The notes below the pieces were generated by a model, which did no database searches, was not told the DNA's origin, and saw nothing but the letters and a program-made list of their open reading frames with translations. 47,797 nt of DNA from Heliobacteriaceae bacterium (GTDB lineage: Bacteria; Cyanobacteriota; Vampirovibrionia; Gastranaerophilales; Gastranaerophilaceae). Position 1 is the stretch's first letter. The number at the start of each line of letters is the position of its first letter. This document shows positions 3,161 to 42,634 of the stretch, piece after piece. The translations under genes and the position numbers were made by a program. The stretch is from NCBI GenBank assembly GCA_031265495.1, contig JAISCP010000084.1:1-47797 (forward strand), read 5' to 3'.

Positions 3161-3762
3161 TTAAGCGCTTTTTGTGCATAAAGCACAATCTGCGTGTTGA
3201 TTAACAGAATTTTTTTGTTCTTGTTATAAGGAACTATTTCTATTTTGTTAATATTAACAAAGTGTTCATGCTTGTACAAATCCCTTAAAAAGGCAAGAAA
3301 AGTGCGGTAATCCGCTACGATATCCAAAGATAAAGCACAGGAACTGTATTTATCAGAGGCGTTTTTTACAAAATTATCCCACTGTGCATCATATTCATAA
3401 CTGATAGAACGTGTTTTAATATGATTATTTTTAAGTATTTTCAAGACATTCGCAATTTCTTCCGCCATAATAGATTCAGTATCTGCGCCTGCATCAATTG
3501 GTTTATAAAAATCTCTGTAATCACTGCCTTTATTTCTGGGTTTATTCTGCACAGCTTCTTCTGCCCTTAACCCGGCAAGTTTGCGTTCGGTTTCTTCAAA
3601 AACCGTAGTTTGGGACTTTATCTCGCCGGAAACTTTAATAATTTGGTTAATTTTAGGCAATGTAACCGTAATAAGCGCTGCGACAATTATAAAAGAAATT
3701 GTCAGAATAATGACAGCTACTATGAATCTTCTCAAGTAATATTTATATTTTTTCAAAAGCAT
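3142..3762 (-). CDS. pilO: PilO-like type IV pilus assembly protein
   Basis: Inner-membrane protein of 206 aa placed as PilO: a short basic cytoplasmic N-terminus, one membrane helix (about residues 12-34), a coiled segment (about 40-70) and a small C-terminal alpha/beta domain. With PilN it would form the periplasmic alignment complex linking the pilus motor to the envelope. Sequence similarity alone is weak; the assignment leans on architecture and on the position 3 nt downstream of the pilMN gene. The ATG touches AGGAG with no spacer, so the TTG two codons later, with 6 nt spacing, may be the true start. Confidence 0.6.
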   Translation of the reverse strand: MLLKKYKYYLRRFIVAVIILTISFIIVAALITVTLPKINQIIKVSGEIKSQTTVFEETERKLAGLRAEEAVQNKPRNKGSDYRDFYKPIDAGADTESIMAEEIANVLKILKNNHIKTRSISYEYDAQWDNFVKNASDKYSSCALSLDIVADYRTFLAFLRDLYKHEHFVNINKIEIVPYNKNKKILLINTQIVLYAQKALNYSNNL

Positions 3763-9079: not shown

Positions 9080-9110
9080 GCGCCGGTTCCTACGGAACCG
9101 GCGCTGTTTA
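9080..9110 (+). terminator. Intrinsic terminator after the two small genes
   Basis: An 11-bp perfect stem (GCGCCGGTTCC and its complement) with a TAC loop at 9080-9104, followed by TGTTTAT. It closes the upstream cluster. The same stem recurs at 9498-9522 with loop ATA, so this hairpin is itself duplicated. Confidence 0.75.
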
Positions 9111-9163
9111 TAAAAATTTACGGAATAGTCCCCTTACGCATGGTTGGAATTTACGCAAGTACT

Positions 9164-9250
9164 CCCTCTCCTTACAGGAGAGGGCTGGGGTGAGGTGGCG
9201 GTTTGGTGATTTGTTTGCCCCCTCTCCCTAGCCCTCCCCCGTATGAGGGG
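9164..9250. repeat. R1 inverted pair (REPIN-like)
   Basis: A plus-strand R1 unit (9164-9195: CCCTCTCC, loop, GGAGAGGG, CTGGGGTGAGG) is followed after about 22 nt by a more diverged minus-strand unit (9218-9250). Hairpins lie outermost and GTGAGG tails face inward, the geometry of REPINs. Confidence 0.7.
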
Positions 9251-9273
9251 CATTGTTAACTTTGCATTGTTTC

Positions 9274-9372
9274 GTCATTGCGAGGAGGGCGTCAGCCCGA
9301 CGCGGCAATCCAGTAAATTCAACGTTTTTGACTGGATTGCTTCGTCCTCATTACATTCGTCCTCGCAATGAC
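9274..9372. repeat. R3 imperfect palindrome
   Basis: A 99-bp copy bounded by GTCATTGCGAGGAG and CCTCGCAATGAC. The halves contain GCGGCAATCCAGTAAATTC and GACTGGATTGCTTCGTC and would fold into a long hairpin. It is flanked by GTTAACTTTGC and AAAAGTTAAC, which are themselves inverted, so R3 sits in the centre of a larger nested palindrome. Confidence 0.8.
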
Positions 9373-9414
9373 AAAGCAATAAAAAGTTAACACTCTCCGT
9401 ATGGGGAGGGAACC

Positions 9415-9498
9415 AATTTATGTGAAGATAAAAAAATGATAATTGAATTAGACGGCTCACAACATTTGGATAATGAAAGTTATGATGCAATAAGAAAG
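9415..9498 (+). pseudogene. DUF559 endonuclease fragment
   Basis: About 20 codons remain of a DUF559 (Vsr/PD-(D/E)XK-like) gene: the frame from ATG 9436 reads MIIELDGSQHLDNESYDAIRK and matches the core active-site block of the intact copy (residues 56-77, EIDGGAH...YDTKR). The upstream codons YVKIKK also fit. Both gene ends are missing. It lies directly beside R1-like GGGGAGGG sequence on its left and a terminator hairpin on its right. Confidence 0.7.
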
Positions 9499-9522
9499 CG
9501 CCGGTTCCATAGGAACCGGCGC
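9498..9522 (-). terminator. Intrinsic terminator of ispH-rpsA
   Basis: An 11-bp perfect stem GCGCCGGTTCC with loop ATA (plus-strand reading). On the minus strand it starts 7 nt after the rpsA stop and is followed by TTTCTTATT. It is nearly identical to the hairpin at 9080-9104. Confidence 0.75.
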
Positions 9523-11687: not shown

Positions 11688-11880
11688 AGTGAATAGGAAT
11701 GAGGGAACAGGAAAGAGCCTCCTCTGTCATGCTGAACTTGGTTCAGGGTCTCTTTGTTTTATTATTTAATATTAAATTTCTTATTTCATAGAGATGCTGA
11801 AACAAGTTCAGCATGACAGGAAGGTTGTCCGGCATGACGCGGACTGTTTTCTCTTTCCTGTTCCCTCATTCCTATTCACT
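11688..11880. mobile_element. MITE-like element with 30-bp perfect terminal inverted repeats
   Basis: The left end AGTGAATAGGAATGAGGGAA continues to 11717 and is repeated perfectly in inverse at 11851-11880 (R6-type sequence). Inside, two R4 palindromes (TCATGCTGAACTTGGTTCAG at about 11729 and GCTGAAACAAGTTCAGCATG at about 11796) are also inverted. It is 193 bp long with no coding capacity. No target duplication is evident by eye. Confidence 0.7.
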
Positions 11881-19781: not shown

Positions 19782-19886
19782 GCATAGTGTTCGGGGTGAG
19801 GGGGAAAGTGTTTTAAAAATTAAGATAAAAAAGAGTAATAATAAAAAATTGCCACCTCACCCCAGCCCTCTCCTGTAAGGAGAGGG
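19732..19886. repeat. R1 inverted pair upstream of the DUF559 gene
   Basis: A long-variant plus unit (19732-19804) inside the 3' end of the TPR gene and a short minus unit (19852-19886) are separated by 47 nt, tails inward. The minus unit ends 26 nt before the DUF559 start codon. Confidence 0.8.
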
Positions 19887-19912
19887 AGTCAAAAAAGAAT
19901 AAAGGAGTAATT

Positions 19913-20284
19913 TTGAATAAAATAAATATTCCAAAAGCAAGACAATTAAGAAAAAATATAACGGATTCCGAATTAAAACTATGGCAAATTCTTCGCAATA
20001 GCCAATTGTTTTACAAATTCAGACGACAATATCCAATAGGTAATTACATAGTGGATTTTATTTGTCTTGAAAAAATGTTGATCATTGAAATTGACGGCGG
20101 TGCGCATAACGAAGAAAGACAATTTCAATATGATACTAAAAGAACTGAGTATTTGGAAAGCAGAGGATTTACGGTAATCCGTTTTTGGAATAATGATGTA
20201 ACGGATAATTTGGACGGAGTTTTTGAAGTTATCCAAAGCCGCCTCAGTCCGTCAAGAATCCCCTCTCCCTGCGGGGGAGAGTGA
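19913..20284 (+). CDS. DUF559 (Vsr-like) endonuclease-family protein
   Basis: 123 aa. Core of the DUF559/PD-(D/E)XK nuclease family related to Vsr: FRRQYPIGNYIVDF with Asp48, then IIEIDGGAH with Glu59, Asp61 and His65, then YDTKR with Asp74 and Arg77, and GFTVIRFWNNDV. These positions fit a metal-dependent nuclease centre. TTG start with AAGGAG at 6 nt. The last residues, IPSPCGGE, and the TGA stop lie in an R1 repeat. The gene is enclosed by inverted R1 copies (19852-19886 and 20300-20334), forming an element of about 480 bp. DUF559 proteins have no firmly established function; a role in moving the hairpins is my inference. Confidence 0.85.
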   Translation: MNKINIPKARQLRKNITDSELKLWQILRNSQLFYKFRRQYPIGNYIVDFICLEKMLIIEIDGGAHNEERQFQYDTKRTEYLESRGFTVIRFWNNDVTDNLDGVFEVIQSRLSPSRIPSPCGGE

Positions 20285-20334
20285 GGGGACGTCAAAATCC
20301 CCTCTCCCTGCGGGAGAGGGCTAGGGTGAGGGGG
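20261..20334 (+). repeat. Two R1 units downstream of the DUF559 gene
   Basis: A shortened unit (20261-20288) and a full unit (20300-20334: CCCTCTCCCTGCGGG, AGAGGGCTAGGGTGAGG) in direct orientation. The full unit is an inverted match to 19852-19886, extending through GTGAGGKGGCAA. Confidence 0.85.
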
Positions 20335-25394: not shown

Positions 25395-25678
25395 CATTGC
25401 TGTACATGTTAATTAGTTACATGATTATTATTAAATATGATTGTTAAAAACCTGCCATAACCTCCCTGACAAAATTACACTATAATCTTATACAATCCTG
25501 AACGATCGGATTGTTTCAGGTTCTGACCGCCGGTAAAATATCCAATACCTTTAAGCTTTACTTCCCCGTACAGAAGGCAGATGCTGAAACAAGTTCAGCA
25601 TGACAGAACGGTTATGACAGGTTTTTAACAATCATATTTACTAATAAATCATGTAACTAATTAACATGTACAGCAATG
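25395..25678. mobile_element. MITE-like element with 68-bp terminal inverted repeats (R8)
   Basis: The left end CATTGCTGTACATGTTAATT extends to about 25462 and is found inverted at about 25610-25678, with one indel and a few mismatches. The interior (about 150 bp) carries an R4-type palindrome (CCTGAACGATCGGATTGTTT...) and GCTGAAACAAGTTCAGCATG. 284 bp, no coding capacity. R8 termini also occur singly near 345-372 and 11652-11680. Confidence 0.8.
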
Positions 25679-36218: not shown

Positions 36219-36677
36219 GGTTGAAGGGTTTAATGGTTAAAAATTGCTCTCTCATTGAGGAGAGTGGAAACTTTGCATTGATTTCTTACCTTACGTACTC
36301 TCTCCCTGCGGGAGAGGGGGCAAACACTTAGCGAAACCGAAGGCTGAGCTTAGTGTTTGGGGTGAGGGGGCAAACCCTTACAAACAACCTCCGCGTCATG
36401 CTGAATGACCGGATTCCGGTGTTTCAGCAATGGTAACAAACTATTGATTCGTCATTGCGAGGACGAATATAATGAGGACGAAGCAATCCAGCCAAACCGT
36501 TGAATTTACTGGATTGCCGCGTCGGGCTAACGCCCTCCTCGCAATGACGAGACGGTTATGGTGTGATTTGCCATATGGCAGACCCTGAAACGAGTTCAGG
36601 GTGACAGGGAGGTTAAGGCGGGCTATCCTTTGCTGTTCCCTCTTCCCTATTTACTATTAACTCCTATTCCCTAATAA
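36219..36677. repeat. Repeat cluster: R7-5', R1 (long), R4, R3, R6
   Basis: In order: an R7-5' fragment (36219-36240), CTCTCTCATTGAGGAGAG and the AACTTTGCATTG link, a long R1 unit (36299-36370), an R4 palindrome (about 36396-36430), an R3 copy (36451-36548), an R4 copy with GAAACGAGTTCAGGGTGACA (about 36584-36605) and R6 tracts (about 36625-36680). No gene is seen here. Confidence 0.75.
36451..36548. repeat. R3 imperfect palindrome, inverted relative to 9274
   Basis: A 98-bp copy from GTCATTGCGAGGACGAAT to CCTCCTCGCAATGAC, with the CGGGCTAACGCCCTCCTC arm at the right instead of the left. Confidence 0.8.
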
Positions 36678-38908: not shown

Positions 38909-39318
38909 GTAGTGTTGTGTATATGTCATTTCCGTAACTTCTAAATTTGTCCCGCCTCCGTCACGTCATCCTGAACTTGTTTCAGGATCTGGTCACCGAT
39001 AAAAATATACAATTTCTGTAAAGTTTTCTTACCCGTGCAGATAGATGCTGAAATAAAATTGAGAAGATAGTGCGATTTTGTGCCGGATCCAGAAACAAGT
39101 TCAGGATGACGTGACGGTTATGGTGTGAGAGTATGTTTATTCATTCCTATTTACTTAATCACTCCTATTAACTATTTACTAACTACTATTTACTGATATC
39201 ATGTAAATAAATGTAAAGATATTAACGTATAACCGGCAAATTTTTGACCCAATGGTTTTTGATATATATTATAGCGTTAGTGATTATTCAATAGAATTTA
39301 AAGTGAAAGGTAGTATCA
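38909..39318. repeat. R4/R6 composite repeat region and promoter of the next gene
   Basis: An R4 palindrome (CATCCTGAACTTGTTTCAGG, about 38968) and its inverted partner (GAAACAAGTTCAGGATGACG, about 39093) bound about 140 bp containing TACCCGTGCAGATAGATGCT, related to the core of the MITE at 25395 and to 42330-42460. R6 tracts (ACTATTTACTAACTACTATT) follow to about 39200. No gene is seen. Confidence 0.7.
39244..39272 (+). promoter_or_regulatory. Promoter of the 39319 gene
   Basis: TTGACC (39244-39249), 17-nt spacer, TATTAT (39267-39272). GAAAGG precedes the ATG at 39319. Confidence 0.6.
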
Positions 39319-42227: not shown

Positions 42228-42634
42228 AAAACAATTATAGCAGGAAATAGAGGTTAGTAAATAGTAAATAGTGAATAGTAAACAGGAAAGAGGGAACAGC
42301 AAAGGATTGCCACAGAGCCCACCTTAACCTCCCTGTCATGCTGAACTCGGTTCAGCATCTGCCTTCTGCACGGGGAATTAAAACTCAAAGGTATTGAATA
42401 TTTTACCGGTAGTCAGATCCTGAAACAAGTTCAGGATTGTATAGGTTATGGTGTGCTTTTGCCATGTGCATTTCCTGAAACCCCGGAGGTGCAATCCGGT
42501 CGTTTAGCATGACGGGGAGGTTGTTGATGTAAACTTTATTACTAAAATTTTCCGCTTGCAATTAAATATTTACATGTTAGACTTAATATTGTCAGAAATC
42601 ACTAACCCGAATACAATTTCAAATAGTCATTAAT
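42228..42634. repeat. R6/R4 composite repeat upstream of rpsE
   Basis: R6 (about 42252-42300, TAGTAAATAGTAAATAGTG), then an R4 palindrome (ATGCTGAACTCGGTTCAGCA, about 42338) and a partner (CTGAAACAAGTTCAGG, about 42419), enclosing CTTCTGCACGGGGAATT. This is the same ~150-bp composite seen at 25465-25610 and 38960-39125. From about 42540 to 42634 the sequence is unique AT-rich DNA. Confidence 0.65.
42234..42261 (-). promoter_or_regulatory. Probable leaderless promoter of alr
   Basis: Minus strand TTTACT (42256-42261), 16-nt spacer, TATAAT (42234-42239). Transcription would begin at or next to the A of the alr ATG. The -35 hexamer belongs to an R6 repeat tract (TTTACTATTTACTAACC). Confidence 0.5.

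Follow-up and report, generated by a model that had tools for sequence, protein, structure and literature searches.

Intrastrand triplex motifs bracket genes of the DUF559 nuclease family: a probable relic of the pairing in a Heliobacteriaceae bacterium and its occurrence in other genomes

Intrastrand triplex motifs (TMs) are present in many copies in more than 260 bacterial genomes and are associated with genome instability (Holder et al. 2015, PMC4666352). Remnants of transposases or integrases near TMs were sought in that study and never found, and the origin of the motif was left unanswered. Another system of short repeats is that of REP and REPIN with RAYT (TnpA-REP) (e.g. Di Nocera et al. 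2013, PMC3733652), in which tagged palindromes, often in inverted pairs, have a single-gene partner. The protein family DUF559 (YcjD) was placed earlier in the PD-(D/E)XK superfamily near Vsr (PMC1189080), and a DUF559 protein of Caulobacter was described as Vsr-like (PMC12907096). A description of DUF559 paired with TMs was not found in the openly searchable papers, among which 14 name DUF559 and none of those listed treats repeats of this kind.

The window, i.e. the whole stretch of 47,797 nucleotides of contig JAISCP010000084.1 that was analysed, contains a dispersed repeat, R1, which is composed of a C-rich arm, a loop, a G-rich arm, 2-4 nt and a G-rich tag, GGGTGAGGG. By its sequence, R1 is identified as the published motif (TM or TMECO, PIT elements): both have the same build, with the G-rich third strand (GGGTGAGGG) following after 3 nt. 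When compared with the TM consensus, CCCTCNCCC N3-6 GGGNGAGGG N3 GGGNGAGGG, the unit at 20300-20333 showed a strict fit and that at 9164-9195 a relaxed fit, as its stem contains a T-A pair. Holder et al. (PMC4666352) also reported inverted pairs of TMs, at 5 sites in E. coli K-12, and found no mobility genes beside TMs, whereas TMs bracket DUF559 genes here. Triplex formation in vitro was demonstrated for E. coli TM oligonucleotides (PMC4666352), while the repeats of the window are known from sequence alone. The bare R1 hairpin occurs in 102 copies in this genome and the compact form of hairpin plus tag in 9; several other R1 subfamilies carry a second small hairpin in place of the 3-nt linker. 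The features of the window and the in-frame insertions discussed below are listed in Table 1.

Table 1. Repeats and DUF559 sequences of the window, and loci with DUF559 inserted in frame
Feature	Position or locus	Strand	Basis or remark
Terminator hairpin, copy T1 (GCGCCGGTTCC TAC GGAACCGGCGC)	9080..9104	.	One of two genome copies
Left terminal inverted repeat of gene-free R1 dimer (GGAATAGTCCCCTTACGCATGGTTGGAATTTACGCAAGTACT; GGAATAGTCCCC...AGTACT)	9122..9163	+	
R1/TM unit, left (hairpin CCCTCTCC-TTACA-GGAGAGGG, CTG, tag GGGTGAGG)	9164..9199	+	Pattern match
Spacer of 17 nt between inverted R1 units (GGTTTGGTGATTTGTTT)	9200..9216	.	Conserved in C39 copy
R1/TM unit, right: tag, N3, 5' hairpin part (split by R2)	9217..9249	-	Unsplit in C39: GCCCCCTCTCCCTAGCCCTCCCCCGTATGGGGAGGG
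R2 repeat (about 150 bp, palindromic) in apex of right R1 hairpin	9250..9396	.	
3' half of right R1 hairpin (the 'R1-like GTATGGGGAGGG arm' of the earlier note, 9399-9410)	9396..9410	-	
Stub of right terminal inverted repeat of R1 dimer, cut where DUF559 fragment starts	9411..9420	.	
DUF559 fragment (CEDKKMIIELDGSQHLDNESYDAIRK)	9421..9498	+	Profile matches, alignment, shuffle scores; both ends truncated, predicted non-functional
Terminator hairpin, copy T2 (GCGCCGGTTCC ATA GGAACCGGCGC)	9498..9522	.	
R1/TM unit upstream of intact DUF559 gene	19851..19889	-	TM pattern match, identity comparison
Intact stand-alone DUF559 gene (TTG start, 123 aa)	19913..20284	+	132.8-133.3 bits, PF04480
R1 hairpin overlapping 3' end of intact DUF559 gene	20261..20283	+	
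R1/TM unit downstream of intact DUF559 gene	20300..20333	+	Fits strict published TM consensus
TM-flanked in-frame DUF559 in PriA	L064, L068, L079, L088, L189		
TM-flanked in-frame DUF559 in IspE	L001, L062, L083, L089		
TM-flanked in-frame DUF559 in other host proteins	L067, L080, L082		

The DUF559 fragment, read in the frame from 9394, scored 25.8 bits against PF04480 (E 1e-5, all of Pfam) and thereby exceeded the curated gathering cut-off of 20.6 bits, the alignment being confined to profile positions 49-78 of 109. A profile search of the whole genome recovered it as C90:9418-9507 (+) with 25.3 bits (E 1.9e-5). All seven invariant residues (I58 E59 D61 G62 H65 D74 R77) were retained in an alignment of 14 rows, comprising the fragment and 13 intact relatives. 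The fragment reached a position-specific score of 30.2; among 300 shuffles the highest value was 14.1, and unrelated six-frame stretches of the window attained at most 17.1. Nothing else came near its DUF559 score in a six-frame scan of the window with the intact gene set aside. Chance similarity in intergenic DNA would be favoured by the shortness of the match, which covers 26-30 residues (26 codons in the fragment); the R and K of YDAIRK at its end possibly stem from bases of the flanking terminator repeat, which leaves an uncertainty of a few codons as to where the homology ends on the 3' side. Against this stand the cut-off, the much lower scores of shuffles and of other frames in the window and the complete set of invariant residues, by which a chance match is effectively refuted; we consider it almost certainly wrong. 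The DUF559 core remnant (MIIELDGSQH...YDAIRK) that an earlier note on this DNA had placed at about 9436-9498 is therefore real and correctly named, and by itself ordinary.

Absent from the fragment are about the first 47 codons and about the last 30 profile positions. Of the complete catalytic core (D47, E58-x-D60, H64, D73 in A3 numbering) it has lost D47 together with the N- and C-terminal parts, and judging from its sequence it is dead and not a functional DUF559 member. Alignment with the intact DUF559 genes of this genome bore out homology but not descent from either of them, since the fragment reads LDGSQHLDNE--SYD against IDGGAHNEERQFQYD and LDGGQHNDEKKITYD. As its residues differ from both, the fragment probably represents a third DUF559 type. 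A match in C129 was also considered as a third element and rejected, being a DUF559-like segment within a 1041-aa frame that resembles a large helicase-type protein and not a stand-alone gene.

The sequence on the left of the fragment is a gene-free inverted dimer of R1, the inverted pair that the earlier note had recognised. The TM pattern at 9164-9195 (+) was expected 0 times in shuffles, and over 39 nt the left TM has 100% identity with the TM that lies upstream of the intact gene. The right TM is inverted relative to the left one; its tag lies at 9217, and the hairpin starts at 9232. Gene-free inverted dimers were observed in the window (9164-9410), in C39 (97% identical) and in C47 (83%). 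The left inverted repeat also precedes R1 in the C47, C32 and C65 copies, and the C39 copy ends on the right in an imperfect inverse of it. With imperfect outer inverted repeats of its own, the R1 dimer is, as far as its sequence tells, a repeat in its own right with its own ends. In C39, the right R1 unit is without R2 and the right inverted repeat comes after it in full, indicating that the additional R1-like arm of the earlier note, though present, is the second half of the right hairpin, split by R2; a third R1 unit could thus be ruled out. The C39 copy runs on as AACCAATTT joined to TAACCATGCTTAAGTGGACT, and the window sequence diverges at this junction, so that the window copy of the dimer stops at 9420, where the DUF559 sequence starts.

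R2 gave 84 matches in the genome, with about 40 near-full places. In most to nearly all of the copies inspected (window 9250-9396 and loci L022-L028, L031-L033 and L035) R2 (GTTAAC...GTCATTGCGAGG) sits in the apex of an R1-type hairpin, and R1 palindromes seem from these positions to be a target of R2. The apex sequence (e.g. CCTCAAGGGG or CCATATGGG) was duplicated over about 9-11 bp in several copies. In a comparison with MITEs, which have terminal inverted repeats and a target-site duplication, the R1 dimer showed imperfect outer inverted repeats, but a target-site duplication could not be established for it. The whole block is flanked by a 25-nt terminator hairpin, GCGCCGGTTCC-NNN-GGAACCGGCGC, of which exactly two copies exist in the 2.05 Mb genome (<=3 mismatches). 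As the hairpin occurs at these two places only, the block appears to lie between two copies of a local duplication. The stem of the terminator is a perfect 11 bp, and the two copies differ in the loop.

R2 copies were found at many contig ends, and a join across R2 could therefore be an assembly error. Evidence against misassembly is that the two half hairpins rebuild the C39 sequence, that the same unique terminator is present on both sides of the block, and that the convergent arrangement of the S1 and sigma genes is common to the window and to the relative G002. At the locus itself, G002 carries a half copy of R2 at the convergent gene boundary. The search covered two genomes of the same genus, G001 and G002, and 29 further members of the family; in none of them was a DUF559 core or a full R1 hairpin detected up to about 1.5 kb downstream of S1, indicating that the block is particular to the lineage of this genome. 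The missing parts of the gene, which the earlier note proposed to seek at the orthologous loci, were thus not recovered, as no relative examined carries DUF559 or R1 there. A DUF559 gene ancestral to the locus had no support in the 30 relatives plus G002.

The intact DUF559 gene of the window is itself surrounded by R1, its final codons falling within an R1 hairpin. The tags point outward around this gene and inward in the gene-free dimer; deletion of the gene from this intact copy would consequently not yield the dimer. Inward-tag copies are the commonest type around DUF559 elsewhere.

A total of 107 DUF559 loci, 30 from this genome and its relatives and 77 from a GTDB-wide scan, were examined for repeats at their flanks, the genome-wide statistics being derived from searches plus individually retrieved loci. 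GC-rich hairpins were present within 100 bp upstream of the DUF559 domain in 24/30 and within 100 bp downstream in 19/30 loci of the genome and relatives; the corresponding values in the wide sample, which is biased toward the sequences most like the query, were 58/77 and 56/77. Outside this lineage (48 loci from Pseudomonadota, Chloroflexota, Nitrospirota, Omnitrophota, Stahlbacteria, Patescibacteria-type groups and others) a hairpin was located within 100 bp upstream in 39, downstream in 37 and on both sides in 33, at a background of 6.1% per 100 bp. The hairpins were confined to the first 100-200 bp on each side and fell to a few per cent, or background, farther out. The layout was conserved as hairpin, near-fixed gap of 2-4 nt and G-rich tag, and the flanking units were inverted in 51 of 62 decidable pairs (p 3e-7), with tags inward in 40, outward in 11 and direct in 11.

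The association could also be observed at the level of whole genomes. Among 117 relatives, TMs were present in 33/38 with a strong DUF559 match and in 11/79 without (p 1e-14), and this held within genera. Because part of this co-occurrence is made up of the TMs flanking the DUF559 genes themselves, two TMs were subtracted per gene copy; the values were then 15/38 and 11/79 (p 0.004). The link between R1 and DUF559, which the earlier note had drawn from two loci, is therefore real and general, extending with mostly inverted hairpin flanks into many phyla. The 11 genomes carrying TMs without a detectable full DUF559 gene include some with more than 20 (G002, G047 and G091), indicating that the gene is not needed to keep TMs and that another mobiliser is possible. 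These three genomes contain 26-42 compact TMs and no full DUF559 match; G002 is only 57% complete.

In E. coli K-12, ycjD (DUF559) lies at 1351407-1351760, and the published TMECO no. 9 at 1351204-1351239, 168 bp away and downstream of the gene, a distance with a chance probability of about 0.003. A decayed TM overlaps the 3' end of ycjD. The gene is unmentioned in the main text of the TM paper (PMC4666352). In locus L245, the E. coli K-12 TM sites near ycjD are at 3206-3240 and 3397-3419. Together, the consistent TM bracket and the TM near ycjD suggest a testable role both for the TM repeat and for DUF559 as a family of unknown function.

Profile comparison matched DUF559 with PDB 3hrl (E 4e-35) and with the homing endonuclease 3r3p (I-Bth0305I; E 4e-5). 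A structure prediction for the protein of the intact window gene (pLDDT 84) likewise matched 3hrl and 3r3p and, more weakly, Vsr 1cw0; its nuclease fold is thus related to 3r3p by sequence and by structure (TM-score 0.64-0.79). A further likeness to the EDxHD homing endonucleases is that DUF559 occupies one site in a conserved gene across genera. It differs from them in consisting of the catalytic domain alone with TMs at its flanks, and no intron or intein was evident at these DUF559 genes.

The conserved gene in question is one of two host genes which we take to be priA and ispE, on the basis of sequence motifs. In PriA, TM-flanked DUF559 stands in frame immediately ahead of the Walker A motif (LLHGVTASGKTE) in 5 relatives of 4 genera, while other relatives have a short loop at this position and the loop of L176 has a scar encoded by R1, EGEGRVRGQN. 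The PriA copies group as a single clade (100/99), although in some of these genera there are also relatives that are empty, a pattern that fits either homing to this position or a single old insertion followed by losses. In IspE the inserts take two positions, an internal and an N-terminal one, the latter seen in this genome too (C50). Across the loci of Table 1, most of the host proteins with such inserts are conserved ones. Rickettsia palindromic elements are palindromes inserted in frame in protein genes; palindromic repeats occur in frame in coding genes here too, but the insert in the present case also carries a nuclease domain. A nuclease domain in frame in PriA or IspE would matter for annotation and for the survival of selfish DNA in conserved genes. 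In L082, a PrmA-like gene was observed with tandem in-frame repeats coding for PLEGGSKSSISGWG, i.e. translated R1 units.

A TM bracket is the normal state of DUF559 genes; the fragment therefore most likely represents the remainder of a TM-bracketed DUF559 element, and its best reading is that of a relic of a nuclease-plus-repeat element resembling REP/RAYT. The block at 9122-9498 is probably a relic pile, made up of the gene-free R1 dimer, the R2 repeat in the apex of its right hairpin and the DUF559 fragment abutting it. A TM-bracketed copy, or a piece of one, may have arrived beside or together with the R1 dimer, and a deletion may then have fused dimer and gene at 9420/9421; a single event of this kind can account for the break point that the 5' part of DUF559 shares with the right end of the dimer. 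Loss of the gene's 3' end would have taken place at the duplication of the terminator, and R2 would have inserted into the right hairpin. Alternatively, the fragment might be a scrap gained during the repair or duplication that copied the terminator, beside an unrelated R1 dimer, and would then not stem from a TM-bracketed element at this site. This agrees with a terminator that is duplicated around the block and nowhere else in the genome, with relatives of which none tested has DUF559 at the locus, and with the independence of the dimer as a repeat that has ends of its own; nor is the fragment at its own locus tied to a specific intact element. However, the fragment joins the dimer exactly, and a distance of less than 100 bp from such repeats is general among DUF559 genes, so that we regard a mere scrap as rather unlikely. 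The earlier note suggested a decay of autonomous copies into repeats that lack the gene. Gene-free dimers do exist, and the suggestion is compatible with the data but no more: the tag direction of the dimer differs from that of the intact copy, the dimer is independent, the fragment probably belongs to a third type and the relatives tested are without DUF559 here. The relic in the window is a further trace of the pairing, the main interest being the general pairing to which it led.

As regards the pairing itself, DUF559 could, tentatively, be the missing mobiliser of the TM/PIT repeats, a widespread selfish single-gene element with TM ends that parallels RAYT and REP, inserts in priA and ispE and leaves gene-free dimers and scars. 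In the mechanism that we consider most likely, the small nuclease, Vsr-like or similar to a homing endonuclease, would recognise TM repeats as the ends of its element; cutting or nicking at TMs followed by host repair would copy the gene to new places, and the same process in trans would copy gene-free TM pairs, which we infer to descend from gene-bearing elements. Insertions that keep the frame would be tolerated even within conserved genes such as priA. A clean target-site duplication could not be established for the DUF559 element. In contrast to REP/RAYT, the tag is GGGTGAGGG-like, neither GTAG nor CGTC being found on the R1 palindromes, and the partner is a PD-(D/E)XK/Vsr-like nuclease in place of an HUH Y1 transposase. 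If DUF559 were instead a passenger caught between TMs that are spread in trans by RAYT/Y1 or another transposase, the TMs of DUF559-free genomes would be accounted for, as would the overall correlation of Y1/RAYT transposases with TMs (24/38 vs 20/79), and R1 itself seems to be a target of R2. Yet Y1 adds little once DUF559 is considered (p 0.03 in DUF559-free genomes, none in those with DUF559), TMs were present in 14/15 Y1-free genomes with DUF559 vs 6/64 without, and the genome of the window (G000) gave no match to Y1/HUH (PF01797), all of which weakens RAYT as the sole driver. Capture of a single gene family at most loci across phyla would also need a reason, and the passenger role seems improbable to us. 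More improbable still is a gathering of TMs and DUF559 at insertion-tolerant sites, such as gene ends and loops, with no functional link. The block does stand at a convergent gene boundary where G002 has half of an R2 copy, and this genome has many copies of both R1 and R2, but mere tolerance of the site is hard to reconcile with hairpins that fall to background past the first 100-200 bp of either flank, with mostly inverted pairs, with the near-fixed gap between hairpin and tag, and with hairpins flanking DUF559 even in the reading frames of PriA and IspE.

Two other dispersed repeats were also observed in the window. One family (TTATCCGGCTTCTGCCAGTTGC..., up to 140 bp) is located at 29.6-32.1 kb and 43.4-44.8 kb, with direct and inverted copies around large genes. 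The other repeat, which is palindromic (GTCATGCTGAACTTGTTTCAGCATCT), occurs at 181-200, 11725-11826, 25579-25613, 36580-36614, 38964-39119 and 42334-42449.
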